Notes: generated from the sequence alone by a model not told the origin. A stretch of DNA of 45,645 nucleotides from a virus (IMGVR_UViG_3300017739_002423:1-45645); one strand, 5' to 3'; shown: positions 9,492 through 30,197, counted from the stretch's first letter. Numbers and translations: made by a program.

Positions 9492-9657
9492 TTGAACATT
9501 TCTCACATCTGCAACTACTGCAAACCTTTATTTGGTAAGGCTCGTAATCTGTATTTCTTTCTCTTACTTCAGCATATCTTGCTGTACCACAATGACTTCC
9601 CCATCCACAATTTTGGCAGTTACTACCTGTACTATCTTGGTGGGAAGTTAATATCAC
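9478..9657 (-). CDS. Small Cys-rich, zinc-finger-like protein (GTG start)
   Basis: This is a 59-residue reading frame starting at GTG 9657, which overlaps the TGA of the upstream gene as GTGA. That fits the tight coupling used throughout the region. The product has paired cysteines NCQNCGWGSHCG near the start and VCSSCRCEKC at the end, a likely zinc ribbon. Without it there would be an unexplained 150-base gap. The function is unknown; zinc ribbons of this size are often nucleic-acid or protein adaptors. Confidence 0.65.
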   Translation of the reverse strand: MILTSHQDSTGSNCQNCGWGSHCGTARYAEVRERNTDYEPYQIKVCSSCRCEKCSNVDK

Positions 9658-10493
9658 TTTTTACTCTTATTTCCCCAATTGGCCGCTCCAACTTTACGAC
9701 ATTTTACTAGGGCACCACTTGCATATGCACTAGGCCATACTTTGTAGCGACTTTTTACTTTTCTATAACAAGCGTCCTTTTCACCGGCCGCTTCATCAAA
9801 TTCTGCTTCTGTTAGTTCTTTAGTAACTTCGCCTAACATTGATTTACTTTTTTTCATTTCACTATCCATTGCTATTTTTACATTACTATTATTGTTTCCA
9901 AACTTAATAGGCTTACCTTTAGTTATATAACTAGTGCCAGCACCTGATCTTTGATCTATTTTATCTTGCTTGGTGTAGGCTTGTTTAATATTATTTTGAG
10001 CTTTAGCAATCGTTTGATTTGTACCCTTACTACTCATTTTAGCACCTTTGTAAGTCATATCATCCATAGCTCTATCACTTGCAAATTTATCTATACGTTT
10101 ATCAGCAACACTTATATTTTTATCTGCTACTGGTGTATGAACAACACGAGTTGTATTGCCTTTGTAAATCTTTTGCCCTACGTCGTCAACTCCACGTTCT
10201 GACAAATCTGTTTCAGGTTCATGATCGCTTTTAATTTTATGCTTATGATAAGGCTTACGCTGTTTAGGCATAATACCTCTAACCTGTGTGTTGGGAGTCA
10301 TACCTTCTATACCTTCTGTTGCAGTTTTTGGTTTATCAGCAAGATGGGCATCAATGCCTGATGTGCCTTTTAAACCCCAATGTTCAGCCGCCTTTTTGGC
10401 CGCTCCATATGAGGACTCTGCTTCACATTCGTATTTGCCTTTTTTAGCATGTACACAAATGTATTTGGCTTCTAGTAGGTATGAGGCTCTCAT
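9654..10493 (-). CDS. Candidate internal-head protein with C-terminal WPSAYASGALVKCRK module
   Basis: This is a 279-residue protein. The N-terminus MRASYLLEAKYICVHAKKGK includes LLE, a possible prohead-protease L-x-E site. A Lys-, Thr- and Gly-rich, probably disordered middle follows. The C-terminal module has CYRKVKSRYKVWPSAYASG and then ALVKCRKVGAANWG, a compact basic module I recognise as recurrent in marine T4-like phages but not characterised. The basic module suggests DNA contact. The stop overlaps the next GTG start. A structural or injected role inside the capsid is inferred. Confidence 0.7.
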   Translation of the reverse strand: MRASYLLEAKYICVHAKKGKYECEAESSYGAAKKAAEHWGLKGTSGIDAHLADKPKTATEGIEGMTPNTQVRGIMPKQRKPYHKHKIKSDHEPETDLSERGVDDVGQKIYKGNTTRVVHTPVADKNISVADKRIDKFASDRAMDDMTYKGAKMSSKGTNQTIAKAQNNIKQAYTKQDKIDQRSGAGTSYITKGKPIKFGNNNSNVKIAMDSEMKKSKSMLGEVTKELTEAEFDEAAGEKDACYRKVKSRYKVWPSAYASGALVKCRKVGAANWGNKSKK

Positions 10494-16166: not shown

Positions 16167-19100
16167 TCATTTACCCTTCGCCATCTTTGTTGCTGTGGCA
16201 TACATTACTGCTTCTGCTTCATCGCCGTAACGATCTTTAAATTCTTTTTTTCTTTTCTTCATACCTTTGACGTACTTTTCTTTTTTCTTTTCTTCGCCTT
16301 TGGTAAGACTACGTTCATTTACATCATCAGTAACAAAATGTTTTTGTCCGTTTGTTGTTTTACGTTTCATACCATATGCTTTCATTGTTGAATACATAGG
16401 TACAAAACCATGTTCTTCTAAATTATTATAAATTTTTTCTAATGCTTGAATAGTTGATTGTGGACTACTATTAGCATGTTTAATTGCAATACCGCCTCTG
16501 CTTGTCCACCTATCAATGTACTTTCCATGATCATCAATTAATACATTTGGTTTTTTAGTTTGTTTATTAATTGCATATGATTCTTTTCTACCTGTAAAAA
16601 TTTCCTGTTGAGAACCTGGATTGTGTCTTGCTAACCAAGACTTCTTACCTGCAATACTGGCATTGTTATTGCCACGTAAAGGAGCACTCAATATAGAATA
16701 AGGAATATTATTTTTCTTTATCCAATTTAACACACTTGAAAACCCTTGTAATGGTTCTAAGTTTGCAAAGAATTGTTCTACAAATTCAGGACCTTGATTT
16801 GTAAGTTCCATTATACTCGCTAGTTGTGCTTCAGCATCTCCAATATCTTTATAACTTGTAACTTGTTTGCCAGTCTTATTGCTGTACCATTTTGCCCAAG
16901 CACCAAAAAAGTCTGCTTGTACTCCATCCATATCCAAGTATAGATGTGGCTTCTCTTCATCTTCTCCGAAGACTGCTTTCTTTGCTTTAGTAAACCAATT
17001 CTGTGTCTTTTTAACTTTAGTATCTTTGTTTTTACCTCCCCAATTTATTTGGGAGGCAATACTACCAGGTGTGTTTTCTCCTAACAGTTGATCTTTAGTT
17101 GCTTTATACCCACTTTGTTTCCATTTGTCTTTAAGTGCATTAAGTGCTTTACCTAATTCAGGTCCTGACTTCATGCCTTTTGCAATTAAGTCATTACCAG
17201 TAACAGGAAACTCTGGTGCTTCAAAGTTACTTACATACTGTATCATGTCATCTTGATTATTATATCTAGCCAATGCGTCTAGTAATTTACGATCTGTACC
17301 AGCAATAATACTATCAGTATAAAAGTCTTTGTTAAACTTTTTGCCTTTATTACTAATAAGAAAATCTAACTTAGCCTTTTCCTCATTACTCATTTTCCAC
17401 TTTGCACTAATAGAACTATCATTTGTAATTCTAGCAAGATTAATTATTGGATCTCCACCGTCCATTAAGTCCTTGTGTATTTCTGCTTGCAATCCTATTG
17501 ATTGTGAAACGCCTGTGTTATTCATTGCAGTAAGTACTTCTTTAATATTATTACCGCCAAGTATTTTGCCAACCTCGCTCCATACTCGTTCTACACTTAG
17601 TTTCTTTAAACCTTCTTTGTTTGCTGTAATTGCTTTTAGTGTATCCTCATCAAACTTTGGATTATCTAAACGTCCTTGGAATCTAAAATAACGTAAAGCA
17701 CGTAGGTAATCTTCCTGTATACGTTCTGCAGGATCACCAACAAATTTGCTTACTTTATCCTGTAGATCATCCATACCGCCATGATAATCGTATAAGTTAC
17801 CATCGAAGTCCATACTCATAGCATTGTATGTTAGGTCTCTACGTTTAGCATCTTCTTCCCAACTTTTAACAAATTCTACTTTTGCAAATCTGCCATCTGT
17901 TTCCTGATCACTACGAAGTGTAGTAATCTCAAAAGGCATGTCATTTATTACTGCTGTAATTGTACCATGTTCAACACCTGTTGGAATATGCTTAATACCC
18001 ACTGCATCAAACAAACTTTCCATTTCATCTGGTGTTGCATCTGTTGCTAAATCTATATCTTTAGGATCCTTGCCTAAAGCCATATCTCTAACAGCACCAC
18101 CTACAATTCTTAATTCATGTCCTTTTTTCTTAAATGCGTTATCTAGTTGTAAAAGCTCTTTGCTCATAATATTCTTTACTGGTAAAACTTCTTCATTAAA
18201 TGCTTTGGTTGTAAGTTTCTTTGCTAAATCTCCTTGTGGATGATTAGGATTTATACTTACTACTTCTCCATTCATTAACTCACTTATATTAACAGCCTTG
18301 CCAATTTTGTCAATAAGTTTGTGAAGTTTATCATTTGCATCATGTTTAATTTCATAACCAGGCTTGCCACGAACTTCAGTACGCTGTCTTGTTTTTGTAT
18401 CATAAATGTGTAAAACATCCATGTCTTTACCACGTTCTAACTGTAATTTATAACCTTCAGTTAAACTTTCATTCATTTGTACAGTAAATGCCGTACTAGG
18501 AATAATGCCTTTGTATGCCAGTGTGCTATCATCATCTTGTACATTTGGATCATTTTCTAGGTTATTCTGGTCTAGTTGACTAGCATCTATACTCAACACA
18601 ACAATGTCGTCAATGTATTCGTCTGGCACTTCTTCGTTTGCTTCAGCATGACTACGAGCAACTTCAGGATCTTTGGCAAGGTATACATACCCAGGCTTAC
18701 TATCTTCCCACTGTGCTTGTGCACCTTTACCACCTAATCCGTTCTTCATAATACTGTCCAAAAACGGTTTGTATGTTGCATGGTATAACATTGTAGTGTC
18801 TTCATTCTTTTGTTTACCACGTCGCATATTTCTAAGATAGTGAGCTCGCTCTCTCTTTGCACCAGTTGCAGTACTAGCAATTTTATCTAACTGTGCTAGT
18901 GTAGCACCTTTAGGAATACCCAATGCTTGAGATGACTTTTCTGTATAGATATCTTTGTAAGTTGTTTTACTAAAATCTTTTACAAGTTTTAATAATTCTT
19001 TTGCTGGCATATTAACACGAATAATATCTACATCTTGTCCTGTATTAAGTGCCGCCACCCATCGATGATGTCCATCAATAATATAGTTATCACTGCTAAC

Positions 19101-19601
19101 TATACTAGCCTTTTTTAATTTACTTTTACGTAGAGCTTTTTCTACTCCCTGATCACTGAATTCACCTTGTACTGCTTTTAGTGATTTTGCAGATACTGTT
19201 TCTTTTCTAAATTCTGCACCATTGTCCTTGAGGTAATCCATGAATTCAGGATAGTCTTTTGTTGCTACTTGTGGCATTTCAGTACGTTTAATACCCATAG
19301 TATCTTTCGGATCAGGTTTTACTATTTTAAATTCTTTTACAAGTTTAGGAAATTCATCGCCATATCTTTGTTTAAATATTTTCATTAAGTTTCTAGTATC
19401 AATATCTTTGAAACTTTTGCCTATTTGCTGTGCATAATAACCAAACGCATGTCTCCAGTTACCTTGATTTTCTTCCTGCTTGCGTTTTAAAACCTTGTAT
19501 AGATAATTAGCCGCCTTGTCATAGTGGCCTGGATAGGCATTTCTATGCACAAAACGTTTCAAATCGCCAATAGGGCTTTCATCTATATCATGGATTTTCA
19601 T
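16167..19601 (-). CDS. Giant multidomain fusion: ParB-like, ADP-ribosyltransferase-like, CCA-adding-type nucleotidyltransferase, HAD
   Basis: From ATG 19601 the product is 1144 residues and begins MKIHDIDESPIGD. Domains in order: a ParB-like domain (about 100-220, with DNYIIDGHHRWVAAL); an ADP-ribosyltransferase-like fold (about 268-375, from MLYHATYKPF through GYVYLAKDPEVA); a class II CCA-adding or poly(A)-polymerase-type nucleotidyltransferase (about 490-850, LRIVGGAVRD, DIDLAT, RRDLTYNAM); a HAD nucleotidase-like domain (about 885-1060, LYLDMDGVQADFF, VLIDDHG); and a tail with VMYATATKMAK. T4 Alt is a packaged ADP-ribosyltransferase, so an injected multi-enzyme is a reasonable idea. The leader contains I-D-E. 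Confidence 0.85.
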   Translation of the reverse strand: MKIHDIDESPIGDLKRFVHRNAYPGHYDKAANYLYKVLKRKQEENQGNWRHAFGYYAQQIGKSFKDIDTRNLMKIFKQRYGDEFPKLVKEFKIVKPDPKDTMGIKRTEMPQVATKDYPEFMDYLKDNGAEFRKETVSAKSLKAVQGEFSDQGVEKALRKSKLKKASIVSSDNYIIDGHHRWVAALNTGQDVDIIRVNMPAKELLKLVKDFSKTTYKDIYTEKSSQALGIPKGATLAQLDKIASTATGAKRERAHYLRNMRRGKQKNEDTTMLYHATYKPFLDSIMKNGLGGKGAQAQWEDSKPGYVYLAKDPEVARSHAEANEEVPDEYIDDIVVLSIDASQLDQNNLENDPNVQDDDSTLAYKGIIPSTAFTVQMNESLTEGYKLQLERGKDMDVLHIYDTKTRQRTEVRGKPGYEIKHDANDKLHKLIDKIGKAVNISELMNGEVVSINPNHPQGDLAKKLTTKAFNEEVLPVKNIMSKELLQLDNAFKKKGHELRIVGGAVRDMALGKDPKDIDLATDATPDEMESLFDAVGIKHIPTGVEHGTITAVINDMPFEITTLRSDQETDGRFAKVEFVKSWEEDAKRRDLTYNAMSMDFDGNLYDYHGGMDDLQDKVSKFVGDPAERIQEDYLRALRYFRFQGRLDNPKFDEDTLKAITANKEGLKKLSVERVWSEVGKILGGNNIKEVLTAMNNTGVSQSIGLQAEIHKDLMDGGDPIINLARITNDSSISAKWKMSNEEKAKLDFLISNKGKKFNKDFYTDSIIAGTDRKLLDALARYNNQDDMIQYVSNFEAPEFPVTGNDLIAKGMKSGPELGKALNALKDKWKQSGYKATKDQLLGENTPGSIASQINWGGKNKDTKVKKTQNWFTKAKKAVFGEDEEKPHLYLDMDGVQADFFGAWAKWYSNKTGKQVTSYKDIGDAEAQLASIMELTNQGPEFVEQFFANLEPLQGFSSVLNWIKKNNIPYSILSAPLRGNNNASIAGKKSWLARHNPGSQQEIFTGRKESYAINKQTKKPNVLIDDHGKYIDRWTSRGGIAIKHANSSPQSTIQALEKIYNNLEEHGFVPMYSTMKAYGMKRKTTNGQKHFVTDDVNERSLTKGEEKKKEKYVKGMKKRKKEFKDRYGDEAEAVMYATATKMAKGK

Positions 19602-20751
19602 ATAAGTATTTAGCCAAATCAGGATCAAAGTCCTCTAACTTAACTTGTCCTCTATTATCCCAAAATTGTACAACTTGTTTCATTTTTTCATTATATGGTT
19701 CATAGGGTTTTCTTAGTTCACTTATTATATGGTCACTTCCCCAAGCAATATCCTTATGTTCTAGAAACCAATCTAATATATTTGCCCTGAAACCACTAGG
19801 TAATCTCCATAAATGTAATGGATTGTTACCATATGCAGGCCTAATGTTTATCTGCGTATCAGGAAACTCTGCTTTTAGATATAAAATCAATCTATGTACA
19901 ACTCTTACACTTAAACTGTTAACAGTAATATCCCAACATTCAATGTTAAAATGTTTATGATATTGATGCATTACTGCTAGTTTATGGCTAAAGTCTGTAC
20001 CCTGTCTTACATATTCATCTACTTGACCCATGCCATCTATACTAACACGCATATGTAAATTATACTTTTTAAAACGTTCTATATCTTTGTCTTTTAATAA
20101 CCTTGTACCATTTGTGTTAATAACGTACTTTGCATTAGGTGCATAGCCCATCATATTGTGTAACATATCTTCAAAATCGTTGACGTAAAATGGTTCACCA
20201 CCAGCCATATATACATGCTGTAGGTTTTCATCTATACCTTTAAATATGTTTTGCCATGCTTTTTCATCATTGCACCAGTCCATTGTTTTTGGATCATGAT
20301 CTATCATAATCCTATCAACTGTACCCTGATCCCAATTATAATGCTTGCCCATTTCAGGCACTAGTTTATAAAGTTGTACTGAACTATAACTGTTACACAT
20401 AATACATTTTAGATTGCATGTATTTCCCATACGTAGATCAAGTCCACGTATTACAGTATCTTCAAAAGGATCATTTGTACCAAACGTTCCTCTTAATGCT
20501 TTTTGTCTAAAACTACGTACACCTTCTGATTCAGGTTTAAAACAATGTTCACAACCACTAGGACATTTGCCCGTAGTGAATTGGTCTCTTACTTTTTGGA
20601 TTGCTTTACTGTTCCAAATAGTTTTAAGACTATTTCTTTTTATATTGTAGGGTAATCTGTATTCTCCATTATTACAACACAGGGCAGGAATACCTTTGTG
20701 CCCTATATGTGCATAATTAAAAGGATACACACAATAATTGTAAGGGTGCAT
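19588..20751 (-). CDS. Radical SAM protein with N-terminal SPASM/twitch-like cysteine cluster (copy 1)
   Basis: This 387-residue enzyme has the radical SAM cluster motif C-x3-C-x2-C in GNTCNLKCIMCNSYSS (C112, C116, C119), then VYMAGGEPF and INTNGT, typical glycine and strand motifs. Before the core lies a second cysteine set (C7, C25, C26, C63, C67, C70; TGKCPSGCEHC). That fits an auxiliary Fe-S cluster like SPASM, but placed N-terminal instead of C-terminal. Such enzymes usually modify peptides or sugars. A paralogue is at 22508-23722. The start overlaps the upstream Cys-rich protein by one base. Confidence 0.9.
   Translation of the reverse strand: MHPYNYCVYPFNYAHIGHKGIPALCCNNGEYRLPYNIKRNSLKTIWNSKAIQKVRDQFTTGKCPSGCEHCFKPESEGVRSFRQKALRGTFGTNDPFEDTVIRGLDLRMGNTCNLKCIMCNSYSSVQLYKLVPEMGKHYNWDQGTVDRIMIDHDPKTMDWCNDEKAWQNIFKGIDENLQHVYMAGGEPFYVNDFEDMLHNMMGYAPNAKYVINTNGTRLLKDKDIERFKKYNLHMRVSIDGMGQVDEYVRQGTDFSHKLAVMHQYHKHFNIECWDITVNSLSVRVVHRLILYLKAEFPDTQINIRPAYGNNPLHLWRLPSGFRANILDWFLEHKDIAWGSDHIISELRKPYEPYNEKMKQVVQFWDNRGQVKLEDFDPDLAKYLYENP
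19606..19613 (-). promoter_or_regulatory. Late-promoter-like octamer CTAAATAC close to a start codon
   Basis: Minus strand CTAAATAC, then TTAT, then ATG at 19601. The 4-base spacing would leave almost no leader, as in three other genes of this window. It overlaps the end of the radical SAM gene. Confidence 0.35.
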
Positions 20752-21992
20752 TAGGTTCTAGGCTTTTTTGGAGTAGTTCTAGGCGGCAGTACTTCTGGAC
20801 TAAACTTTGGTTTACTAACTGGCACGTCGAAACTTGCACCTGGGCCACCAGTTCTATCTGCGTTGGCTTGAGCCGCTTTAGCCTTGTCATACATTTTCTT
20901 GTACGCAGGCGTGAATACTTTAAGTTCTTTTTTGTTTTGTTTTTGATAAGGATTTTCTAATCCGGTCATATGTGGTTGAGCTCTTAAACGTTGAGTTGAA
21001 CCTTGCTCTCTTACACCAGCAAGTTGTTTCAATCTATCAACATCAGCATTAAGTGCTTTTTGTGTTTGGCGTTTCATAGCAATAGCAACAGGGCGTTCAT
21101 ATCTACTTGTGTCCTGCACTGTTTTGCCATTTTTAGTTTTAAGAAAAGTTACTTGTCCAGTATCATCAGCATGAGATGAACTTGAAGTAGTGTTTACTTT
21201 ACCACCTTTTTCTACAGATGTACTTTTGTCCTGGTACCAATTTGTTTTTTTAGTATTATGGTCAGTACCCTGCATAGTCCTACTAAAATTAGTAGTAGTA
21301 CCCTGTGGACCAGAGGTAGTATTAGTACTAACTTTCCGTCCCACTGTGGCGGTTGCTTCATAAGCCTTTTCCACATGATCCTGTAATGCTCTGGAAGTTG
21401 TCATTGCAGGTGAACGACCCATTACTAGTTGTGCAAGTTCTTTAAAACCATTTTTAGTTCTTAGGAACCATTCAACTTTCTTTTTCTTGTCATCTTCTAA
21501 GTTATCGTATACATCAATAATACGTTTTGCAGTGTTTGGCGTTACGCCAATAGTTGAACCATCATACATTCTTACAGGAAATGCACTATTGTCTTTACGT
21601 GTTGCTACTTTATCTAAAACAATTAATGGGTCACTTTGTTTTACAACTTTTTCCCATACAATATCTGCGGATTCGTTTACAAGTCCCATATTATATAAGG
21701 TATGTATTGGATCTTTTGCATTTCTTTTCTTTAATAAATTTTTATTATGTCCAAAAAACTTTGCGGCTTGTCTTTCTGTTTCGCCAGGCTTTACATCTAC
21801 TGTAGTGTTAACACCTGGAACAATTACACCATCTTCTTTTAAATTATAACAGTTACATTTTTTACAACTTGAATCACAAGAACATTCACTGACAGGTGCT
21901 CCACAGCAATCTTTATTGCACATTAGCACACCATCTTTAATCCAAGTGCCTTTTTTAGTGTATTTGTCAGGTAGTATGTTTGTTATCTTCAT
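20751..21992 (-). CDS. Protein with N-terminal cysteine-rich domain between two radical SAM genes
   Basis: A 413-residue protein beginning MKITNILPDKYTKKG. Residues about 22-48 hold ten cysteines in a short span (LMCNKDCCGAPVSECSCD, then SCKKCNC), a likely metal- or cluster-binding knot. The middle is Thr/Ser/Lys-rich (STNTTSGPQGTTTNFSR) and similar in style to the packaged-type proteins. It also contains LKQLAGV, seen again as LKKLAGI in the 76-residue protein at 25023. It is flanked on each side by a radical SAM gene and overlaps one by a single base, so it could be a substrate or partner. The function is unknown. Confidence 0.7.
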   Translation of the reverse strand: MKITNILPDKYTKKGTWIKDGVLMCNKDCCGAPVSECSCDSSCKKCNCYNLKEDGVIVPGVNTTVDVKPGETERQAAKFFGHNKNLLKKRNAKDPIHTLYNMGLVNESADIVWEKVVKQSDPLIVLDKVATRKDNSAFPVRMYDGSTIGVTPNTAKRIIDVYDNLEDDKKKKVEWFLRTKNGFKELAQLVMGRSPAMTTSRALQDHVEKAYEATATVGRKVSTNTTSGPQGTTTNFSRTMQGTDHNTKKTNWYQDKSTSVEKGGKVNTTSSSSHADDTGQVTFLKTKNGKTVQDTSRYERPVAIAMKRQTQKALNADVDRLKQLAGVREQGSTQRLRAQPHMTGLENPYQKQNKKELKVFTPAYKKMYDKAKAAQANADRTGGPGASFDVPVSKPKFSPEVLPPRTTPKKPRT

Positions 21993-22134
21993 TTTTTAAC
22001 TGTTCTTCTAAGTCTTTAATCTTTTCTTCAAGTTGGGCAATTTTCTCATTTGCCTGTCTTATCTCTTCGAGGCCTCTATATCCGTATTCTGTATAGCCCT
22101 CATCGGGCAGTATTGCTCTCGCCCTGGTTACCAT
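21967..22134 (-). CDS. Small coiled-coil protein (55 residues)
   Basis: ATG at 22134 opens a 55-residue frame that overlaps the stop of the upstream basic protein by 7 bases and runs 26 bases into the next gene. The product starts MVTRARAILPDEGYTEYG and continues with a regular heptad helix (NEKIAQLEEKIKDLEEQ). Without it the 130 bases here would be unexplained, and both overlaps fit the gene style of the region. A small assembly or scaffolding role is possible; no family is recognised. Confidence 0.6.
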   Translation of the reverse strand: MVTRARAILPDEGYTEYGYRGLEEIRQANEKIAQLEEKIKDLEEQLKNEDNKHTT

Positions 22135-22487
22135 TTACGACAGCTCCAGTAACGTGCCTTATGGCGTGGTCCTGGATTAGCACAGTTATGTCTTGCTCTA
22201 AAGCTCTTACGTCTTGCTGGGTTTGACTTTTTAATTTTTACACCCTTTTGTCCAAAGTTAACTTTAACTACGTTACCTTTTGGATTCTTGACGTATACTT
22301 TAAACTTTTTAACATCACCTGCCATAGGCTTTCCAAGTTTGACTTTACGTCCCTGATATTCTGCTTCGTCAATAGGATCGTCATCGTCATTGTAATACAT
22401 GACGCCATAATCTTCAAAGAACATATCATCGTCATCATATGTGACTTCATCTAACATACGGTTTTCTGTGATTTGATTTATACGCAT
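22128..22487 (-). CDS. Conserved basic phage protein with MRINQITE leader and RRKSFRARHNC module
   Basis: Start at ATG 22487, with GAAGGTGAG before it; a GTG nine bases upstream is less likely. The product is 119 residues. MRINQITENRMLDEV contains I-T-E, then an acidic spacer (DDDDMFFEDYGVMYYNDDDD) that could be removed by the prohead protease. The C-terminal module (VKVNFGQKGVKIKKSNPARR, then KSFRARHNCANPGPRHKARY) is strongly basic and ends in WSCRKW. This module is widespread in T4-like marine phages by my recollection but has no known function. A late promoter lies 25 bases upstream. Confidence 0.8.
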   Translation of the reverse strand: MRINQITENRMLDEVTYDDDDMFFEDYGVMYYNDDDDPIDEAEYQGRKVKLGKPMAGDVKKFKVYVKNPKGNVVKVNFGQKGVKIKKSNPARRKSFRARHNCANPGPRHKARYWSCRKW

Positions 22488-22507
22488 GGTTCTCACCTTC
22501 TATTGTT

Positions 22508-23722
22508 TTAAGTATTTATCCATTCTGCTAATTCTGGATCAAAACTATCTAATGTTAAAGTACCATGTGTATCGTAATAATTTACGAAGCGTTTCATGGA
22601 CTTTCGTTTATTTTCATCTTCATTATGTGGCTTTTGCATCTCATGAATAACATGATCAATTCCTTCTAACTTGTCTTTATGTTTAATAAAGAAATCTAAA
22701 CTTTCCTGTCTAAAATGTGCAGGAATATTATCCATCATAAGTTCATACTTGTTGATAACAGGTCTAACTTGAACTTTACTATTTGGATATTTGCTCCACA
22801 AATAATCAATAAGTTTAGGAATATGTCTCACACTTAATGGATTAGCAGTAATGTCCCATACTTGTACACCAAATTCTTTATAATACTGGTCCATAACTTC
22901 TAACTTTTCTTCCCATACAGTATCCTGTCTGGTATACTCTTCTGCTGGTCCCCAACCATCTACACTAAGTCGTATCTTAATGCCCTGTATGTGTCTCAGT
23001 TTTGCTAAATCCTTTTCACGTAGTAAACGTGTACCATTTGTATTAATAGCAATTTTTGCATTTGGTGCTGTTTTCCATATACGTTCTACAGTGCTAGGAA
23101 AGTTTTTAAGATAAAATGGCTCACCACCTGCTAGATAAAGATGTCTTAAATTTTCGTCAATGCTACTTAAAATGTTATCCCATGCTTGTGGATCATCACT
23201 CCAATCATAATGTCTTTTATGAAACTTATCTAGTTGTGATTCTAATCTATCTTCTTGCCACTTAAAATGTTTGGCCATTTTAGGTAAGTGCTGATATATT
23301 CTGTTACTATTACCTGCAAAACACATTATACATGCTAGATTACATATGTTACCTAGACGTAAATCTAATGCACGTATTTTTGTGTCCTCAAATGGAACTC
23401 CTCTATTAATCATACCTAATGTTTTTTGTCTAAAACTACGTACACCATTACGTTCAGGATCAAAACATTTATTACAACCTAAAGGTTCCTTACCATCTGC
23501 TAACATCTTACGTACATCATTCATTTCAGGTGATTGCCATATTTCACTGAGTTTATAGTCTTTAATATTGTATGGTGATATTTTATACTTTAAGTTCTTA
23601 CAACATAAAGCAACATAGCCATCATTGTCAATGAAACTGTAATTACTAGTAAAAATACAGTATTTCATTGGGTCAATGGTATTAGGAATATATGAAGGTT
23701 TTTCAATTACGGGTTGAAGCAT
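22508..23722 (-). CDS. Radical SAM protein with N-terminal SPASM/twitch-like cysteine cluster (copy 2)
   Basis: This 404-residue paralogue of the 19588-20751 protein has the cluster motif in GNICNLACIMCFAGNSN (C127, C131, C134), then LYLAGGEPFYL and AINTNGTRLL. An N-terminal cysteine set (C22, C40, C41, C83, C86, as ALCCKNLKY and LGCNKC) again precedes the core. The shared block GVRSFRQK just before the core, followed by VPFEDT here and DPFEDT in copy 1, marks both as one family. It probably works on a peptide or another phage product. The four-base gap to the next gene suggests one transcript. Confidence 0.9.
   Translation of the reverse strand: MLQPVIEKPSYIPNTIDPMKYCIFTSNYSFIDNDGYVALCCKNLKYKISPYNIKDYKLSEIWQSPEMNDVRKMLADGKEPLGCNKCFDPERNGVRSFRQKTLGMINRGVPFEDTKIRALDLRLGNICNLACIMCFAGNSNRIYQHLPKMAKHFKWQEDRLESQLDKFHKRHYDWSDDPQAWDNILSSIDENLRHLYLAGGEPFYLKNFPSTVERIWKTAPNAKIAINTNGTRLLREKDLAKLRHIQGIKIRLSVDGWGPAEEYTRQDTVWEEKLEVMDQYYKEFGVQVWDITANPLSVRHIPKLIDYLWSKYPNSKVQVRPVINKYELMMDNIPAHFRQESLDFFIKHKDKLEGIDHVIHEMQKPHNEDENKRKSMKRFVNYYDTHGTLTLDSFDPELAEWINT
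22512..22519 (-). promoter_or_regulatory. T4-like late promoter octamer ATAAATAC
   Basis: Minus strand GGATAAATACTTAAAAC lies 25 bases before the ATG at 22487, with a GAAGGTGAG ribosome site between. It sits at the 3' end of the radical SAM gene. Confidence 0.6.
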
Positions 23723-23725: not shown

Positions 23726-25018
23726 TTAACTTTCGAGTTCGCTTGGAACGCCGATGTCTTGTACTGTTTTGTTAGTTTTAAAATTATCAATAATCCTCTG
23801 TACAATACTAGGATCATACTTTGCTTTGATAGCATCTAATAAGGTTTCAAAACTATTTAAATCTTTTGGTTCTACATTTAATGTATTAGCAATTTCATCT
23901 GCTGTCTTAAATGGCCCTTGTATAATTTTATTTGTGTTCTGTTTTGTATATCCTGTACCTGCTTTATTAGGTGTAGGTGTACGTTGTACTTTAATTAATC
24001 CATCTCTAGGTGACCACATCCAGCGTCTACTTTCTTTAGGTCTACCATCTTCTATCTTTTCTTGTGAATCCTGTCTATCAAATACTCCTGCAATAGCACC
24101 AATCATTAAGTTACGGAATACGCCTTTATATTTTGATTCCTCTTCTGTAGGAGAATGATAATATGTCTTTAACCAACCTGGATCACCTGGCATAAAATCT
24201 AATTGTACAAAACCTGTACGTCCTTCTGGTGGTCCCATATTTTTTCCTGTTTCAGGATCAATAAATGGCCTTTTTGCATCATAGTTTTGAATTTTAATCT
24301 TTGTTATCCATACACTTGTTTTTTCTACATACAAGAATACATTGGAATTCTTTTCTAATGTTTTAGTAAATTCATCTGTCTGATCAGGTGTTATATTTAA
24401 TGCTACATCAATATCACCACTGAACTGTTTTTTACCCACACTGCCTAATGCTTGATTTACTAGATTAACACCTAATAACTTAGATATAGGACCTAGTGTT
24501 GGTTCAATCTCATCTCTATGGATAGACCCAACTCCTGGAGCGGAACCACTTTCTTTTAGCGTTGTCGGGTGAGATTTCTCAGCACCCGACATTGCTCCCC
24601 CCTCGTTCGCTACCGGAGTAGCGAGCTTTTTGGACTCAACCGGAAACTCCTGATTAGGAGTACGGAAGTCCTTTTTCCTCATAACTGTTTTTGCAATTAA
24701 ATCCAGTTCTTGATTTCGGGGATCCCAACGCAATGCAAAGGGTATATTAATATCCGTTTTCATATCTTTCATTACTGCTTCAGCATCAGGGCCTAATTTT
24801 TTTATAGGATTTCCCCAACGCTTGTATTCTTGTTTGAATATACGAATGAGCTCGCTTACTGTAATTGGTTTAACGTTACGCTCATCATTAACTCTATCTA
24901 AGAAGTGACGTGTAAATTCCACATCAATACCTATTTTGCCAAACATTTTGTCTGCAAATCGTTCAACATTATCTAGTTCTGCTGATGAAATTTCATTGTC
25001 TACTTCTGTAATTCTCAT
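23726..25018 (-). CDS. Two-domain protein: N-terminal RelE/BECR-like domain and nucleotidyltransferase-like domain
   Basis: Start at ATG 25018 (MRITEVDNEISSAEL), giving 430 residues with I-T-E in the leader. The N-terminal domain has FTRHFLDRVNDERN, then LRWDPRNQELDLIAKTVMR, resembling small BECR/RelE-type RNases with conserved His and Arg; this is tentative. The second half has GSVGKKQFSGDIDVALNI, the G-S...D-x-D core of nucleotidyltransferases, and later GFVQLDFMPGDPGW, the third acidic strand. A hairpin-rich, GC-rich linker joins the halves. It could be a packaged tRNA- or RNA-modifying enzyme like the 1144-residue fusion. Confidence 0.7.
   Translation of the reverse strand: MRITEVDNEISSAELDNVERFADKMFGKIGIDVEFTRHFLDRVNDERNVKPITVSELIRIFKQEYKRWGNPIKKLGPDAEAVMKDMKTDINIPFALRWDPRNQELDLIAKTVMRKKDFRTPNQEFPVESKKLATPVANEGGAMSGAEKSHPTTLKESGSAPGVGSIHRDEIEPTLGPISKLLGVNLVNQALGSVGKKQFSGDIDVALNITPDQTDEFTKTLEKNSNVFLYVEKTSVWITKIKIQNYDAKRPFIDPETGKNMGPPEGRTGFVQLDFMPGDPGWLKTYYHSPTEEESKYKGVFRNLMIGAIAGVFDRQDSQEKIEDGRPKESRRWMWSPRDGLIKVQRTPTPNKAGTGYTKQNTNKIIQGPFKTADEIANTLNVEPKDLNSFETLLDAIKAKYDPSIVQRIIDNFKTNKTVQDIGVPSELES
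24552..24635. repeat. Paired inverted repeats inside the linker of the 430-residue gene
   Basis: Two perfect inverted repeats occur here: GTCGGGTG paired with CACCCGAC across 11 bases, and TCGCTAC paired with GTAGCGA across 4 bases. They flank a C-run that on the minus strand is GAGGGGGGAG just before an in-frame ATG. The base composition is clearly less AT-rich than the surroundings. Confidence 0.75.
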
Positions 25019-25022
25019 ACTA

Positions 25023-25253
25023 TTATTTACCTGCTTTTGGTGTAGGGTTCTCACCAGTTAGTTTTGGCTTTGCAAACCACAACTTAAACCATTCAGCACT
25101 ACCGGGTACAATGTTATGCTTTCGCATATACTGTCCCTTTTCAGTACCAGTTACACTGATATTACTCTCATCATCACTATCCACACGGTCACCTTCTTTG
25201 TCCATGTGAATACCTGCTAGTTTTTTAAGTCGTGTGATCTCATCTATTTGCAT
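25023..25253 (-). CDS. Small protein with MQIDEIT leader
   Basis: A 76-residue protein that begins MQIDEITRLKKLAGIHMD; I-D-E fits the leader pattern and LKKLAGI recurs as LKQLAGV in the 413-residue protein. An acidic middle (DRVDSDDESNISVTG) follows, then a helical, Trp-containing segment (GSAEWFKLWFAKPKL) and a short basic end. No family is recognised. Its start overlaps the end of the oxygenase gene by 14 bases. A late-promoter-like octamer lies four bases before the ATG. Confidence 0.7.
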   Translation of the reverse strand: MQIDEITRLKKLAGIHMDKEGDRVDSDDESNISVTGTEKGQYMRKHNIVPGSAEWFKLWFAKPKLTGENPTPKAGK

Positions 25254-25740
25254 GTATGTATTTATTCTTTATCTCTTCAAATGTTCCATTAACATTCCAA
25301 CTTATACTTATACGTCTATCAGATCCTGTAACTTCTACCTTGTGTGGCATTGTGGTATTAAACAATACAGGTTCTGTTAGTGTAAACCTATGTACTTCTC
25401 TAACATCTGATTCTGAAATATTATATAGTTTACGTTTCTCATCATAATCACCAAACCTTTCATTAATCCATTCATATACTATTGTTTCACTATTATCACA
25501 ACGTACAGGAATATTAATGGCACAAGTTCTATTACTATCTACATGTAGTTGCATTTGTTTTTTAGGTTTGTACACATGATAAGACTTACTCAGCCAAGGG
25601 TATTGTTCCCTCAACTGAGCCATATAAGGTTCATCATCTGCTAATCTTCTGTGGGTATTGCCTTCTAAGTTTCTATATGCTATCTCGCTTATAGCATCAA
25701 GATCAAACATATCAGGCATTGGAAATACAATGTTGTCCAT
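25240..25740 (-). CDS. 2-oxoglutarate/Fe(II) oxygenase-like protein
   Basis: A 166-residue protein with KKQMQLHVDSNRTCAINIPV, giving the H-x-D metal pair. About 70 residues later come TMPHKVEVTGSDRRISISWN, a distal histidine and an arginine suitable for 2-oxoglutarate. The spacing is that of small phage oxygenases. The substrate is unknown. The gene follows the lyase gene by 24 bases, has a late-like octamer four bases before the ATG, and precedes the group of candidate packaged proteins. Confidence 0.7.
   Translation of the reverse strand: MDNIVFPMPDMFDLDAISEIAYRNLEGNTHRRLADDEPYMAQLREQYPWLSKSYHVYKPKKQMQLHVDSNRTCAINIPVRCDNSETIVYEWINERFGDYDEKRKLYNISESDVREVHRFTLTEPVLFNTTMPHKVEVTGSDRRISISWNVNGTFEEIKNKYIHANR
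25258..25265 (-). promoter_or_regulatory. Late-promoter-like octamer ATAAATAC close to a start codon
   Basis: Minus strand AATAAATAC, then ATAC, then ATG at 25253. It has the same four-base spacing as the octamers at 25745, 19606 and 648. Confidence 0.4.
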
Positions 25741-25744
25741 AATA

Positions 25745-25752
25745 GTATTTAT
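25745..25752 (-). promoter_or_regulatory. Late-promoter-like octamer ATAAATAC close to a start codon
   Basis: Minus strand CATAAATAC, then TATT, then ATG at 25740. It closely matches the T4 late promoter core; the transcript would start at or next to the start codon. Confidence 0.45.
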
Positions 25753-25763
25753 GGCATTGTAAT

Positions 25764-26696
25764 TTACTTAATTTTTTGGATTACCATGTCTTTCATGTAA
25801 ACAACAGTGTTTACATTTTTAGTAGGATCAATTCGCTTTGTATCGTATGCAAACTGGTATGCACCAAACTGAAACATAAGTCCGTCTTTTGCATGGTTAT
25901 CGAATGCCCAGTCATCTTCATAAAACTGGTCATGCTTTTCATTAGGCATTGCATCACAACTTGTACAATCAATAATTGTTTTACCGTTGAAAACAAACTT
26001 AAAAGTACCGTTATCATCTACATGTGTAGTAATTTCTACAGTATGCCACTTACCCTGCCATTCACCTTTTTTAGCAAGTGTAATTGCACTAGACTTATAG
26101 TGCTTACTATCATTATCTAGGATACCACGGTATGTAAAAATGAGGTCCTCAGGCTGTACTGCTGGAGCATATTCACTTTTCTTATACCAGTCATCAAACA
26201 AATTTACTGCACCACTGGCTGGAGCAGTAGTTATACCATATACAATTACGCCAGCCTTAAAATTTTTCCACTGACCTGTAAAATGTGTACGTTGTCCACT
26301 GAGTTTAATTTCCTCAGGAACATAAAAACTATATTTGTAAGTTACTGTGTCACCTTCACGAAAAGCATACTTGTCTTTTACTTTATATTCAGCACGTGAC
26401 TTTTTGTAATTTTCCTGACCTGCTTGGTCCTGGGCACCTTCGTTCTGCACACCAAACTTTGTTTGGAAACGATACACAGTTTCACCATCAATTTTACCTG
26501 TAAGAACACTTTTGTTCCAAGCAATATTGTTAGGCTCTAAAATCTTATTCTTAATACCTGTAGTGCTAGGCTTAAACACATTATCCATAGCAATAGGAAC
26601 ATCTGTATCAGGGAGTGATGTTTGAAAAGCCATCGCTTGATTCATACCTGTTAAAATACCAAAAGTAATAACAGTTCCTGCAACCCAATATTTCAT
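25764..26696 (-). CDS. Secreted polysaccharide-lyase-like protein (heparin-lyase I / PL20 type)
   Basis: A 310-residue protein with a clear Sec signal peptide (MKYWVAGTVITFGILTGMNQ then AMAF, cleavage after about residue 24). The mature part is strand-rich: THFTGQWKNFKAGVIVYG, GEWQGKWHTVEITTHVDDNG, KFVFNGKTI, and a final GLMFQFGAYQFAYDTKR with the tyrosine pattern of beta-jelly-roll lyases. Two cysteines (DCTSCD) may form a disulfide after export. The product could degrade polysaccharide outside the cell or in the periplasm. A strong sigma70-type promoter precedes it, so it is likely an early gene, unusual for a depolymerase. Confidence 0.75.
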   Translation of the reverse strand: MKYWVAGTVITFGILTGMNQAMAFQTSLPDTDVPIAMDNVFKPSTTGIKNKILEPNNIAWNKSVLTGKIDGETVYRFQTKFGVQNEGAQDQAGQENYKKSRAEYKVKDKYAFREGDTVTYKYSFYVPEEIKLSGQRTHFTGQWKNFKAGVIVYGITTAPASGAVNLFDDWYKKSEYAPAVQPEDLIFTYRGILDNDSKHYKSSAITLAKKGEWQGKWHTVEITTHVDDNGTFKFVFNGKTIIDCTSCDAMPNEKHDQFYEDDWAFDNHAKDGLMFQFGAYQFAYDTKRIDPTKNVNTVVYMKDMVIQKIK

Positions 26697-26728
26697 AATG
26701 TACCTCGTTTGTTTCTAACTATACTCTT

Positions 26729-26759
26729 ACTATACACTAAGATGTCTTACTTGTCAAGT
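26729..26759 (-). promoter_or_regulatory. Sigma70-type promoter for lyase gene
   Basis: On the minus strand TTGACA is followed after 17 bases by TATAGT (position good to about two bases). The spacer holds GTAAGACATCTT, an element shared with two other promoters. The -35 hexamer overlaps the stop region of the upstream GNAT gene. Confidence 0.8.
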
Positions 26760-27241
26760 AAAAAAGTCATAAAATTTTGCTTTTTTCCAAAGCCTAGAAA
26801 TACTTCTTCGTCATATACATGGGTAAAACCAAGTTTCTCTGTAGCTCTTATATTACGTTTATTGTCATGCGTCATATGTATATGAACTTTATCATAATAC
26901 TCAAATGCATAATCAATTAGCATATATCTAAATTTCCAGTTATAATCGCCTCCCCAACAATCTCTTATTAAGAATGTACTTCCCATAAAGAGTCTATCTT
27001 CAGGCATAATATAGTAACGTGTGGCACCAATGATTTTGTCCTGTTCTCGTATAGTAAGAGAACCAACATCAACCATAAATTCAAACCATTTTGTAAAGGG
27101 AGTCTTTTTCCATCTATTTTTTGCGGGCATGCCAGCCCAGATGGCAGGATCACTGGCGGCAGAATACATCTCTTCGTAATCTGCACTAACCAGTGGTTTA
27201 ATGTTTAGATTGTCTTTGTAAAGTGTTGGTTGTAAATTCAA
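26747..27241 (-). CDS. GNAT-family N-acetyltransferase (TTG start)
   Basis: A 164-residue protein of the RimJ/RimL-like GNAT type: an N-terminal strand (IKPLVSADYEEMYSAASDP), then GSLTIREQDKIIGATRYYIM, and DCWGGDYNWKFRYMLIDYAF, the acetyl-CoA-binding region. It ends with THDNKRNIRATEKLGFTHVY, the classic C-terminal motif. The start is TTG at 27241, overlapping the upstream TGA as TTGA, so it is translationally coupled. The substrate may be a protein N-terminus or a small molecule. The promoter of the lyase gene begins within its last codons. Confidence 0.88.
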   Translation of the reverse strand: MNLQPTLYKDNLNIKPLVSADYEEMYSAASDPAIWAGMPAKNRWKKTPFTKWFEFMVDVGSLTIREQDKIIGATRYYIMPEDRLFMGSTFLIRDCWGGDYNWKFRYMLIDYAFEYYDKVHIHMTHDNKRNIRATEKLGFTHVYDEEVFLGFGKKQNFMTFLLDK

Positions 27242-27618
27242 GCCGCTTCTAATTCCAATTTTCCAGTATTAGCATTAGGAACAAGTTCCATTTCAATGCC
27301 CTGTTCAACAGCCGCCAACATAATCTTCTTTTCCATAATTGGCTCTACGATTTCTTTAATCCTAGTCCAATTAGCACGTTGTATACATTCACCACCTCTG
27401 TAATAATCTAGTGGGAGATCATACATCTTAAGTCCTAATGCCTTTAGACTTCTACCTTTGTTGCCAAGTCCATTGTTAAAGATATCATATGTTACGTTTT
27501 GTGCAACCCTGTACTGTTCTAATTTTCTATTCTTAACAGGATTGGTTACTGAACCTTCCATTGGAATCAAATCATTTAATGCTTCTACAACACTAGTAAG
27601 ATTCTCATTACAAAACAT
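27238..27618 (-). CDS. Unknown early protein
   Basis: Start set at ATG 27618 (MFCNENLTSVVEALND), because AAGGAG lies seven bases before it; an ATG six bases upstream touches the ribosome site. The product has 126 residues with an N-terminal helix and a mixed middle (VAQNVTYDIFNNGLGNKG). The second half, RANWTRIKEIVEPIMEKKIM, is helical and ends acidic. No family is recognised. It has its own sigma70 promoter and forms an early unit with the GNAT and possibly the lyase gene, so a takeover function is possible but unproven. Confidence 0.7.
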   Translation of the reverse strand: MFCNENLTSVVEALNDLIPMEGSVTNPVKNRKLEQYRVAQNVTYDIFNNGLGNKGRSLKALGLKMYDLPLDYYRGGECIQRANWTRIKEIVEPIMEKKIMLAAVEQGIEMELVPNANTGKLELEAA

Positions 27619-27652
27619 AAACATTCTCCTTAATTTTTTAGCTTATATATAG

Positions 27653-27681
27653 AGTATAGCACCAAGATGCCTTACTGTCAA
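27653..27681 (-). promoter_or_regulatory. Sigma70-type promoter
   Basis: On the minus strand TTGACA, a 17-base spacer, then TATACT. The spacer begins GTAAGGCATCTT, an element shared with the promoters near 26740 and 44140. It drives the 126-residue early gene; the TGA stop of the upstream gene lies within TTGACA. Confidence 0.82.
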
Positions 27682-27866
27682 CCTAAAAATGTTATTTCTT
27701 CTGGAAAATATTCGATTATTTGGCATACATTGTATACCTTACTTGCTTCTTTTGCTTGTTCATATGTGTCATATACACAGGGTAAAATGTTATCATCCTG
27801 TCCAAAATAGGTTACAGTCATCCATTCATCCCCTACGGGTACTTGTATTACCCAGCCATCTGGCAT
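27678..27866 (-). CDS. Small hypothetical protein
   Basis: A 62-residue protein (MPDGWVIQVPVGDEWMTVTY then FGQDDNILPCVYDTYEQAKE) with alternating strands and a short helix. It overlaps the end of the UV endonuclease gene by 19 bases and ends within the next promoter, so it is probably translated from the endonuclease transcript. The fold looks like a small alpha/beta domain; no function can be given. Confidence 0.65.
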   Translation of the reverse strand: MPDGWVIQVPVGDEWMTVTYFGQDDNILPCVYDTYEQAKEASKVYNVCQIIEYFPEEITFLG

Positions 27867-28870
27867 TTATACTCCCATAGTTTTCTGCTTGCAAGTTGTT
27901 TGCATTTGCTTTCTACCATAATATCTGCATATGGAAGAAACTCTAAGGCCCAATCATTTACTGCTGAATTCCACATGTAATCACTGTGGGCACGTAGTTT
28001 TGCTTTCTTGTAACCCTGTTCAAGAAGTAATTCTTTGTTTGGAAGTGTGTCTGTAGCATGTTCTGGAATATAATCTTCACGTGATACACTGTAATGAATA
28101 ACAGGTGTAACACCACGCCATGTATCCACTATGCGAGAAAATCTATCGTCGGTGGGACGTATATATTCACCTTCTTTGCACCAGTGATGGTGTATGTCGA
28201 GTACGAGTGGAATGCAGTCTGGGAGTTGAAGACTTGCGTCGAGTCCCCACGAGTTTTCGTCGTTTTCGATTGTAATTGTGTTTTTCGCTTCCTCAGATAG
28301 TCTTGGGTAGATGTCGGCGATGCCGGCAGGACCCTTGCGACCTGAGATGTGTACGTTGATCTTGAAGTCTTGAAATTCTCGGCCGAAGCCCATCCACCTG
28401 GCGACGTCAACATGATACTCAAACTCCTCTAAACTACGCTCTACAACATCCGGATTATCACTTGCTAGGACTGTAAATGGTCCTGGGTGCATTGAACAAC
28501 GGACATCGAGGGCTCTTGCTTTTTCACCAACTTTTGCGAATTCTCTTTCGCAGTATTCACGTACATCACTAATACGCCAAAAATAACCCCAAGTAGGCTC
28601 GGTATAAACAGGAAGTACATCGCTACCCAGTCTGACCATACGAAGCTCATTTGGAAGTTCTCCTACATAACTGATAAGATTATCGTAGCTCTTAATGTTG
28701 TGTACCATAAGGTCCCACAAACGTTCTTCTGCGACATCCTTAGTTTGTCTATTAAGCCATTGCACTGTCGTACATCTATTGTTGTACTGACGCTCAATAG
28801 CTTCTAGTTCTTTTTTCTTTAGTGTTCTGTCATGGTGCATATATTTACATGCAAAGCCAATTCTAGCCAT
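27848..28870 (-). CDS. uvsE: UV DNA damage endonuclease (UvsE/UVDE-like)
   Basis: A 340-residue TIM-barrel endonuclease that nicks DNA 5' to UV photoproducts and other lesions. Signs are the N-terminal MARIGFACKYMHHD, RCSMHPGPFTVL, ITIENDENSWGLDA, the metal-binding PLVLDIHHHWC, TPVIHYSVSRED and LRAHSDYMW, all in the family order with histidines and acids in place. It would protect injected or replicating DNA in sunlit water. A sigma70-type promoter lies upstream. Codon use changes within the gene: roughly 28140-28420 is much less AT-rich than the rest, which could mark a recombined patch. Confidence 0.92.
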   Translation of the reverse strand: MARIGFACKYMHHDRTLKKKELEAIERQYNNRCTTVQWLNRQTKDVAEERLWDLMVHNIKSYDNLISYVGELPNELRMVRLGSDVLPVYTEPTWGYFWRISDVREYCEREFAKVGEKARALDVRCSMHPGPFTVLASDNPDVVERSLEEFEYHVDVARWMGFGREFQDFKINVHISGRKGPAGIADIYPRLSEEAKNTITIENDENSWGLDASLQLPDCIPLVLDIHHHWCKEGEYIRPTDDRFSRIVDTWRGVTPVIHYSVSREDYIPEHATDTLPNKELLLEQGYKKAKLRAHSDYMWNSAVNDWALEFLPYADIMVESKCKQLASRKLWEYKCQMAG

Positions 28871-28901
28871 AAAATAATCCTAACAAAATAAACATAGTGC
28901 T

Positions 28902-28930
28902 ACTATAACACCTAAATCCATATATGTCAA
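28902..28930 (-). promoter_or_regulatory. Sigma70-type promoter for uvsE
   Basis: On the minus strand TTGACA, a 17-base spacer, then TATAGT, about 30 bases before the uvsE start. The -35 hexamer overlaps the stop of the upstream RyR-domain gene. Confidence 0.8.
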
Positions 28931-29496
28931 ATAATTTTATTCTGTTTTAACCATTCCATGATATCTGTGCTTTCATAGTCTGGTATACGCCTATGACTTT
29001 CAGGTAGGGTATCCCAATCTTTTAAAGCAGGGTGTGTTTTATTAGTGCTTGAGTAGTGAGAACCCCAACGCCAACCTTCATTTACCTTATTACTAACCCA
29101 ACGATTATGATTAAATTTACTCATATCATAGGTTACTTGTTCTGTAATCTCAGGTTGTATATCAAGGCTGTTAACAAAATTACCAAAACCTTGTTGCCTA
29201 TATTGATTGCTAGTTTCAATATCAAAATCACCTTCACCCGCCATTGCAGTCCATGCTTCAACTATAAACATTGCTTCATCTGGTGTAAGGTCTCTTTCAA
29301 GTGGAACTATTAGTTGGTGTGGGAACTCTTCACCTTCTGCTGTACCATATTCCATTGCTACCCAATTACCATTATGCTGATATGTTAGTGTAATATTATC
29401 AGGTCCATACTCTTTTACAGTTTGATACCATAGTATTGCACTTGCACCTGGTAGTTGATTAGCCGTGTTTAATTGTATATGGTGTTGATACTTCAT
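28927..29496 (-). CDS. RyR-domain protein
   Basis: A 189-residue protein. The C-terminal 60 residues match the RyR repeat: KFNHNRWVSNKVNEGWRWG, then NKTHPALKDWDTLPESHRR, with the H-x-x-W...GW-x-x-G...HP-x-L...LPE pattern. The first 120 residues are unrecognised (QLPGASAILWYQTVKEYGPD). In ryanodine receptors RyR domains have been implicated in ligand and protein contacts; in prokaryotes and phages they are rare and their role is not established. It lies between uvsE and the EF-hand membrane gene. Confidence 0.78.
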   Translation of the reverse strand: MKYQHHIQLNTANQLPGASAILWYQTVKEYGPDNITLTYQHNGNWVAMEYGTAEGEEFPHQLIVPLERDLTPDEAMFIVEAWTAMAGEGDFDIETSNQYRQQGFGNFVNSLDIQPEITEQVTYDMSKFNHNRWVSNKVNEGWRWGSHYSSTNKTHPALKDWDTLPESHRRIPDYESTDIMEWLKQNKII

Positions 29497-29498
29497 GT

Positions 29499-29849
29499 TT
29501 AGCCTTCCGCTTCGTTGCTTTGTGGCATAATTACTGGTTCTTCTTTTTTACGTGTTGATGGACTTGCTTTTATACTGCCTGTTTGTTCTGGAACTTTAAC
29601 CACAGCATCACTTTTGCTGTTTACGTACAGTCCAAACCAAGCCGCACCTGCGCCTGTTACAACGCTTACTAAACCTGCTTGTGCCATATTAGGATCTTCT
29701 AATCCCATGAACCACATTGTTACTTGATAAAACATGTAAATGTATATTGAAATGAATAATCTAGGAAATACTCTTAGTCTATCAAACCAATAAGGAAAAT
29801 ATTCCCATTTACTTACTTTACCGTCTCCATCTAGATCCATATTGTTCAT
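29499..29849 (-). CDS. Membrane protein with EF-hand-like loop
   Basis: A 116-residue protein. The N-terminal MDLDGDGKVSKWEYF is a calcium-binding loop pattern D-x-D-x-D-G. It is followed by two hydrophobic segments (RLFISIYIYMFYQVTMWFMG, and GLVSVVTGAGAAWFGLYV) and a polar, lysine-rich tail (KVPEQTGSIKASPSTRKKEE). Similar small membrane proteins with this loop are found in marine T4-like phages. It may sit in the host inner membrane; a calcium-linked role is inferred from the loop only. It is two bases from the RyR-domain gene. Confidence 0.75.
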   Translation of the reverse strand: MNNMDLDGDGKVSKWEYFPYWFDRLRVFPRLFISIYIYMFYQVTMWFMGLEDPNMAQAGLVSVVTGAGAAWFGLYVNSKSDAVVKVPEQTGSIKASPSTRKKEEPVIMPQSNEAEG

Positions 29850-29871
29850 CCTAATCCCCCCGGAATTGTTG

Positions 29872-30177
29872 TTATAATGTGCCGTCTGTTACTGTGGCAC
29901 TAGCCATTGTTCCTCCAATGGCCTGTATTTCTGTTTGTAAGTCAGCCGCTGACCAGCCAGATTGTTCTAAGTAAATCTTAAATGCACCGCCACTAAACGC
30001 ACCGATAGCAAAAAAGTTACTAAACTTCTGTACTGCTTCAACGAACTTTTCCATATCTTGACCTGGTGCAATTTGTGCATCTGCGCCTGTGGCTCCAGCG
30101 ATATCAAACACTGTAAGTGTTGTACCTCCAAACTGTGTACCAAAATCAATGGTATTATTCGCATTTCTAGTTGCCAT
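29872..30177 (-). CDS. Small late protein, probably virion-associated
   Basis: A 101-residue protein, MATRNANNTIDFGTQFGGTT, rich in Gly, Ala and Thr, with an N-terminal strand region and a C-terminal helix (SAADLQTEIQAIGGTMAS). A late promoter (30198) and an AGGAGGT ribosome site precede the ATG, so it is strongly expressed late. The neighbouring 85-residue protein has a similar style, and both lie next to tail-fibre genes, which suggests small structural or fibre-tip proteins. No family is recognised. Confidence 0.75.
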   Translation of the reverse strand: MATRNANNTIDFGTQFGGTTLTVFDIAGATGADAQIAPGQDMEKFVEAVQKFSNFFAIGAFSGGAFKIYLEQSGWSAADLQTEIQAIGGTMASATVTDGTL

Positions 30178-30197
30178 AGTTACCTCCTATTGTATAT

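Follow-up and report, generated by a model that had tools for sequence, protein, structure and literature searches.

The window, which is the whole virus record analysed here (45.6 kb; 45,645 nucleotides), is judged from its sequence to be a piece of a larger phage genome, and carries genes recognized by eye as encoding a T4-like DNA polymerase, a ClpA-like protein, and a PhoH-like protein. An uninterrupted frame of 1144 codons occupies positions 16167-19601, with its ATG at 19601 and its stop codon at 16167-16169; the 1144-residue ORF originally predicted at these positions is thus real, and can now be assigned to the minus strand, which that prediction had not specified. A second IMG/VR contig encodes residues 404-1144 of the protein with 100% identity, so the fusion of its CCA-adding, HAD, and tail portions is not an error of one assembly. 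A DNA-level search of a phage collection with the region around the ORF returned no match. The protein, its modules, and neighbouring genes of the same mosaic set are listed below, with a slash marking predicted cuts.

16167-19601, minus strand: mosaic protein gene, 1144 aa, a single open frame, in part identical in the second contig
19578-19601, minus strand: leader MKIHDIDE, 8 residues, a predicted capsid-targeting propeptide with a predicted cut after E8 ([LI]xE statistics; T4 IPIII)
19362-19526, minus strand: helical module, residues 26-80 (module HMM matches in other mosaics)
18972-19295, minus strand: ParB/Srx-fold module, residues 103-210, with the motif IIDGHHRW (phrog_2859; structure model matches)
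18807-18932, minus strand: basic module, residues 224-265, a C-terminal tail in other mosaics (module comparison)
18474-18797, minus strand: ADP-ribosyltransferase (ART) module, residues 269-376, predicted Tpt1/KptA C-lobe type (structure model; standalone in locus L327)
18447-18467, minus strand: junction SLTE/GYK, residues 379-385, candidate prohead protease site (junction statistics; T4 gp23 LTE/A)
18237-18452, minus strand: YKLQLER module, residues 384-455 (40 module HMM matches among related ORFs)
17082-18164, minus strand: class II CCA-adding enzyme module, residues 480-840 (PF01743, TRNT1, module HMM)
16440-16943, minus strand: NT5C-type HAD phosphatase module, residues 887-1054 (PF06941, PHROG, module HMM)
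16176-16313, minus strand: basic C-tail RSLTKGEEKKK...MYATATKMAK, residues 1097-1142 (phrog_12788; 63 module HMM matches)
20751-21992, minus strand: neighbouring protein that carries VNTT, another module of the mosaic set
22128-22496, minus strand: leader-bearing neighbour (MRINQITE/N) with the ARYWSC tail module
23726-25054, minus strand: neighbouring protein with the FTRHFLDR module
9654-10493, minus strand: leader-bearing neighbour (MRASYLLE/A) with the KVWPSAYASG tail module

Two radical-SAM-like genes lie among the mosaic genes (19588-20751 and 22508-23722, both minus), the first overlapping the start of the 1144-aa ORF, and several more are found in two near-complete relatives, G001 and G002.

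The CCA-adding-type, HAD, and ParB-like domains of the original prediction were all borne out. Residues 477-841 match PF01743 with an E value of 3e-34 (118 bits against a cut-off of 23) and human TRNT1 with 1e-79, and the GGAVRD..DxD, RRD, and EDxxR motifs are intact when aligned with human TRNT1 (PolyA_pol head); the assignment as a class II CCA-adding enzyme holds, with a predicted activity of CTP/ATP addition to tRNA 3' ends. The HAD domain, at about residues 887-1054, is of the NT5C type, matching PF06941 (5e-8; 33.5 bits against a cut-off of 24.8) and a PHROG deoxyribonucleotidase (2e-18), and its DxD and DD motifs can be read in the sequence as LDMDG and LIDDH. A standalone HAD-like protein with no leader is encoded at 43518-44096 (minus), and the phage thus has both a mosaic HAD and a separate one. 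The ParB-like region (residues 81-223) matches phrog_2859 (1e-28; Pfam gave just 0.038), and in sequence it resembles the DarB-like proteins found in Burkholderia phages as well as hypothetical proteins from other phages. In an AlphaFold model, residues 103-210 adopt a ParB/sulfiredoxin fold, with pLDDT mostly >90 in this stretch, and the best structure matches were ParB, Noc, KorB, PadC, and sulfiredoxin (Z up to 7.7 to ParB/Noc). The G-x-x-R type motif is present as IIDGHHRW, of which DGHHR is nearly invariant in 34 sequences.

The fourth domain had been predicted as an ART with T4 Alt, an injected enzyme, as its precedent; the fold stood, but among the structure matches listed the nearest relative was another. 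Residues 269-376 give almost no profile signal (phrog_13493 only), and a structure model was built with ten homologues. While model pLDDT was only 72, the first fourteen structure-search matches were all Tpt1/KptA (Z 10.0-11.3, rmsd 2.1-3.5 over 84-94 residues), followed by the next family at Z 8.6 and other ARTs at Z 6-8; no Alt-type ART was among the structure matches listed for the model, and Tpt1/KptA was clearly on top. Foldseek gave 3e-5, identity to Tpt1/KptA is 27% over 88 residues, and weak sequence matches agree with Tpt1 (PTS_2-RNA, 0.077; PDB Tpt1, 0.38). The module shares the NAD-binding-lobe ART fold of the RNA 2'-phosphotransferase Tpt1/KptA, but the alignment spans Tpt1 chain residues 88-177 only, and the N-terminal winged-helix lobe, the RNA-binding lobe of Tpt1/KptA, is missing. 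Because only the NAD-binding lobe is represented, and because the module stands alone directly behind a leader in locus L327, we interpret it as an ART of the Tpt1 C-lobe type and not as a whole 2'-phosphotransferase; among the structure matches listed, it is closest to the NAD-binding lobe of Tpt1/KptA rather than to T4 Alt.

Although all four folds of the predicted four-domain fusion are present, that description missed four modules (residues 26-80, 224-265, 384-455, and 1097-1142), the last of which corresponds to what had been called a DNA-binding-style tail. Searches of 50,697 phage records by tblastn with the C-tail, YKLQLER, and CANMK modules gave no match; the shortness of the queries and low-complexity filtering may be part of the reason.

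A permuted, alphaproteobacterial-type tmRNA (tag ANDNIAPDFAIAA) was found at 44793-45148 (minus), adjoined by a gene identified by eye as encoding an outer-membrane-barrel-like protein with a signal peptide (44215-44802, minus). The tmRNA encodes its own acceptor CCA (GCCUCCACCA in the Rfam alignment), and its 3' maturation therefore does not need a CCA enzyme, which undercuts the suggestion that the CCA-adding domain acts on the tmRNA acceptor end and makes this substrate unlikely. Neither the window nor the relatives scanned yielded any tRNA gene. As to the host, Alphaproteobacteria are hinted at by the alpha-type tmRNA and by the similarities of the CCA enzyme, and a scan of host genomes with the VNTT module recovered one fragment only, on a Planctomycetota MAG contig.

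These data bear on whether the protein might be an unpackaged, intracellular multifunctional enzyme that combines tRNA processing with nucleotide metabolism in the host cytoplasm, as for the standalone CCA enzymes of jumbo phages, which have been described as RNA-repair enzymes (PMC7824862). The enzyme of the Agrobacterium phage Atu_ph07, described as serving tRNA maturation (PMC6102473), is 41% identical over the catalytic core; it is standalone and leaderless, whereas the CCA module here lies inside a leader-bearing mosaic. Leaderless standalone CCA enzymes, which also occur in the related contigs L233 and L234, agree with an intracellular role, as does the overlap of the gene with a radical SAM gene. 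However, the window contains no tRNA genes and a tmRNA with its own CCA, the enzyme is fused with basic tails, and the leader and junction statistics given below point elsewhere; we consider an intracellular enzyme improbable.

To survey module composition, 3201 distinct ORFs, taken from 308 sequences of related marine-phage loci, were searched with HMMs of the modules described here and of further ones. Among them, 177 complete proteins contained at least two modules and fell into 61 distinct architectures, and the 1144-aa protein has the most modules of the set (eight). No protein outside this virus and its near-identical contig showed exactly the same order of eight modules, as might be expected of a decaying or accidental fusion with no selected function as a unit; yet the 1144 codons are unbroken, the CCA motifs are conserved in this protein and in the mosaics of L053, L229, and L072, and dozens of analogous fusions exist in related phages, making such decay very improbable. 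The partners of the CCA module differ among the latter three mosaics. In L072 it follows directly behind the leader MKIQQVIE/D, and L229 (2823-6632) encodes a 1270-aa mosaic composed of a leader, a VNTT module, HD_4 (8.5e-16), the CCA enzyme, and a basic tail, so that in another phage the CCA module is paired with an HD hydrolase. When viral sequences were scanned with only the CCA domain in order to count CCA mosaics, just two contigs were recovered, because the search patterns were too specific.

Other mosaics extend the range of activities. An M78-type metallopeptidase is present in L325 and, weakly, in L053, and zeta/AAA_33 kinase modules are present in L230, L325, L330, and L331, where the Tpt1-like ART and the ParB module are paired with this type of kinase. 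A nucleotidyltransferase module named by eye as NadM-like had 113 matches in related loci; such modules are seen directly behind leaders (e.g. MFLRELFE/AP), and leader-borne copies are possibly head-packaged NAD+ synthesis enzymes. In the cultured Sinorhizobium phage Phosso (L321, 5971-6165), the VNTT module is a 64-aa standalone protein that begins with a leader, MRYAEILKLLE/DGKVVKGVNTT.

The capsid-targeting-like leader of the original prediction is supported both by its sequence, MKIHDIDE/S, and by statistics over hundreds of related proteins. An [LI]xE motif falls within the first 14 residues in 238 of 456 module proteins (52%), compared with 173 of 998 other ORFs of the same loci (17%) and with 8% of random internal windows, and control motifs differed little (odds ratios 1.1-1.9). 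The glutamate is at residue 8 in 156 of the 238 leader-bearing proteins. The leader of T4 IPIII, MKTYQEFIAE/A, likewise ends in hydrophobic-x-E; for T4 capsid-targeting sequences (CTS), the first ten residues are enough to direct targeting, and residues 8 and 10 govern processing (PMC9026906).

The same pattern recurs between modules. Among 141 distinct sequence contexts that precede three of the modules and have glutamate at P1, 76% have a hydrophobic P3, compared with 22% at adjacent positions. Across 46 architectures, the density of [LIVMF]xE is 5.4 per 100 residues in linkers against 0.64 per 100 in modules, an 8.5-fold ratio, while the corresponding ratios are 2.3 for glutamate alone, 1.6-3.1 for reversed or shifted motifs, and 0.7 with D/K instead of E. 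In the 1144-aa protein itself, 10 of the 17 [LIVMFY]xE sites lie in linker, which makes up 20% of residues (p 6e-4), and enrichment of the strict [LI]xE motif alone is not significant (p 0.06; linker sites E8 and E382 only, plus E842 and E1063); since rows in the leader and junction tests are related, p-values overstate independence, and it is the effect sizes and controls that carry the argument. A hydrophobic-x-E site is found at every junction of the protein except MRRGK-ART, which has no hydrophobic P3, and some such sites also fall within modules. The depletion of [LIVMF]xE inside modules is only suggestive, because module copies are related and because the leaderless enzymes of L233 and L234 are also site-poor.

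Module starts directly after a glutamate are common to leaders and internal junctions for the CANMK, ParB, VNTT, YKLQLER, and ART modules. Paired boundaries, N-terminal and internal respectively, include MRIFEVVE/NFADGKK and IIE/NFADGKK, MKKFRTYIAE/LKVERP and LDE/LKIQKP, MKIFEVTKVIVE/GYKLQ and LTE/GYKLQ (YKLQLER), and MLIKEIITE/ARATLYHATY and LGISE/DADVLYHATY (ART). The sequence SLTEGYK, correctly located in the original prediction at residues 379-385 but read there as the end of the ART region, marks instead the start of the next module (YKLQLER, residues 384-455). Its P3-P1 residues are identical to those of T4 gp23 at E65 (LTE/A), and the suggestion that the prohead protease might cut here gains support from the family statistics, LTE being one of about eight such junctions. 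An origin of the internal junctions from fossil leaders, by stop loss before a leader, was rejected, as junction logos have no conserved upstream Met.

An alternative is that the protein is packaged by means of its leader and, once this is lost, persists as a single chain, with the glutamate-containing linkers serving uncut as recombination joints or flexible linkers. Leader statistics and modular mosaicism need no internal cuts, linkers are generally rich in glutamate (2.3-fold), and the N4 virion RNA polymerase, a polyvalent protein, is packaged unprocessed (PMC5512222). It is important to note, however, that the hydrophobic-P3/E-P1 pattern of the junctions is that of the leaders, far above the shifted-motif controls, and that module starts are identical behind leaders and at internal junctions; we regard an uncut chain as rather unlikely.

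A protease able to cut such sites can be placed in related phages. Both gp21 (PF03420) and gp23 (PF07068) are encoded in three of the module-bearing records, in the gene order gp20, gp21, gp22, gp23 (gp20 and gp22 were assigned by eye and from their place in the order), and the candidate sites in gp23 (YLSE/S or YLAE/N) and gp22 (LLE/S or LFE/N) fit the rule seen in leaders and junctions. T4 gp21 and gp23 gave no match by single-sequence phmmer in G001 and G002, nor by profile in the first five records searched; given the profile matches in three other records, these earlier blanks may reflect incomplete records. As neither gp21 nor gp23 is present in the window record, we infer the protease from relatives. 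Both near-complete relatives have, in their structural region, a single ORF of about 4960 codons (G001, 24274-39153, locus L212; G002, 119255-134167).

Tailed phages are known to package and inject proteins, each cargo normally being regarded as a gene of its own. The 1144-aa protein is best explained as a modular relative of T4 internal proteins and polyvalent proteins; with moderate confidence, from sequence, we propose that a marine phage of the T4 superfamily targets it to the head as a cargo polyprotein, which could be cut by gp21 and delivered with the DNA. The late-made chain would be drawn into the prohead core by its 8-residue leader, which a gp21-type prohead protease would remove at IDE/S. 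The protease would probably also cut the junctions, at E90, E221, E378/E382, E470, E842/E880, and E1063/E1096, and basic tail modules may in part hold the released enzymes in the head. The ParB-like, ART, CCA-adding, and nucleotidase enzymes would then be ejected with the DNA and act before phage gene expression. The CCA enzyme would most likely restore tRNA 3' ends damaged by the host (through defences or collapse) or by infection; targets of the ART could be host RNA, DNA, or proteins, and those of the nucleotidase, nucleoside monophosphates; and the ParB-like domain could function as an NTP-regulated nuclease, a role already proposed in polyvalent proteins (PMC5512222).

At the level of sequence, the protein displays features of both CTS-bearing internal proteins and polyvalent proteins. 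It shares with T4 IPI-IPIII and Alt a short N-terminal leader ending in hydrophobic-x-E, and T4-type head genes are present in its relatives. The T4 internal proteins are late-made head cargo, to which the 1144-aa protein is likened as predicted cargo; however, T4 cargo consists of single proteins that lose a leader only, whereas here up to eight modules are joined with leader-like sites between them, and the ART, judged by the structure matches listed, is Tpt1-like rather than Alt-like. Polyvalent proteins (Iyer et al. 2017, PMC5512222; e.g. P1 DdrB and DarB) are, similarly, large chains of several disparate enzyme domains, with ParB-like and ART folds and predicted injection, and share the M78-type metallopeptidase with other mosaics of the set. 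Their processing is ascribed to built-in metallopeptidases, in contrast to the prohead protease proposed here to act at inter-module sites, and CCA is absent from the text of that paper (PMC5512222). In SPN3US/phiKZ-type giant phages, head and ejection proteins are cut by the prohead protease on the C-terminal side of glutamate (A-x-E), and long propeptides are cut several times, but these cuts remove propeptides, and separation of several enzymes of one chain is not described (PMC10052503). In the limited literature searched, we saw neither head packaging of a CCA enzyme described nor the cutting of an enzyme polyprotein by a prohead protease.

The analysis suggests that phages are able to bring a set of enzymes, cut apart from one another, into the cell. 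Tentatively, and as a possibility that falls somewhat short of likely, an uncultured marine T4-superfamily lineage may encode its early enzyme kit as true polyproteins, with prohead-protease sites between shufflable modules and cutting inside the capsid, a single gene thereby supplying several separate packaged enzymes. If so, the swapping of injected effectors in marine phages would be explained by a combinatorial cargo polyprotein whose modules are bordered by protease sites, and a leader together with hydrophobic-x-E junctions would provide a sequence rule for predicting injected proteins in uncultured phages. A CCA-adding enzyme would join the injected effectors, and injected tRNA repair would be directly testable.
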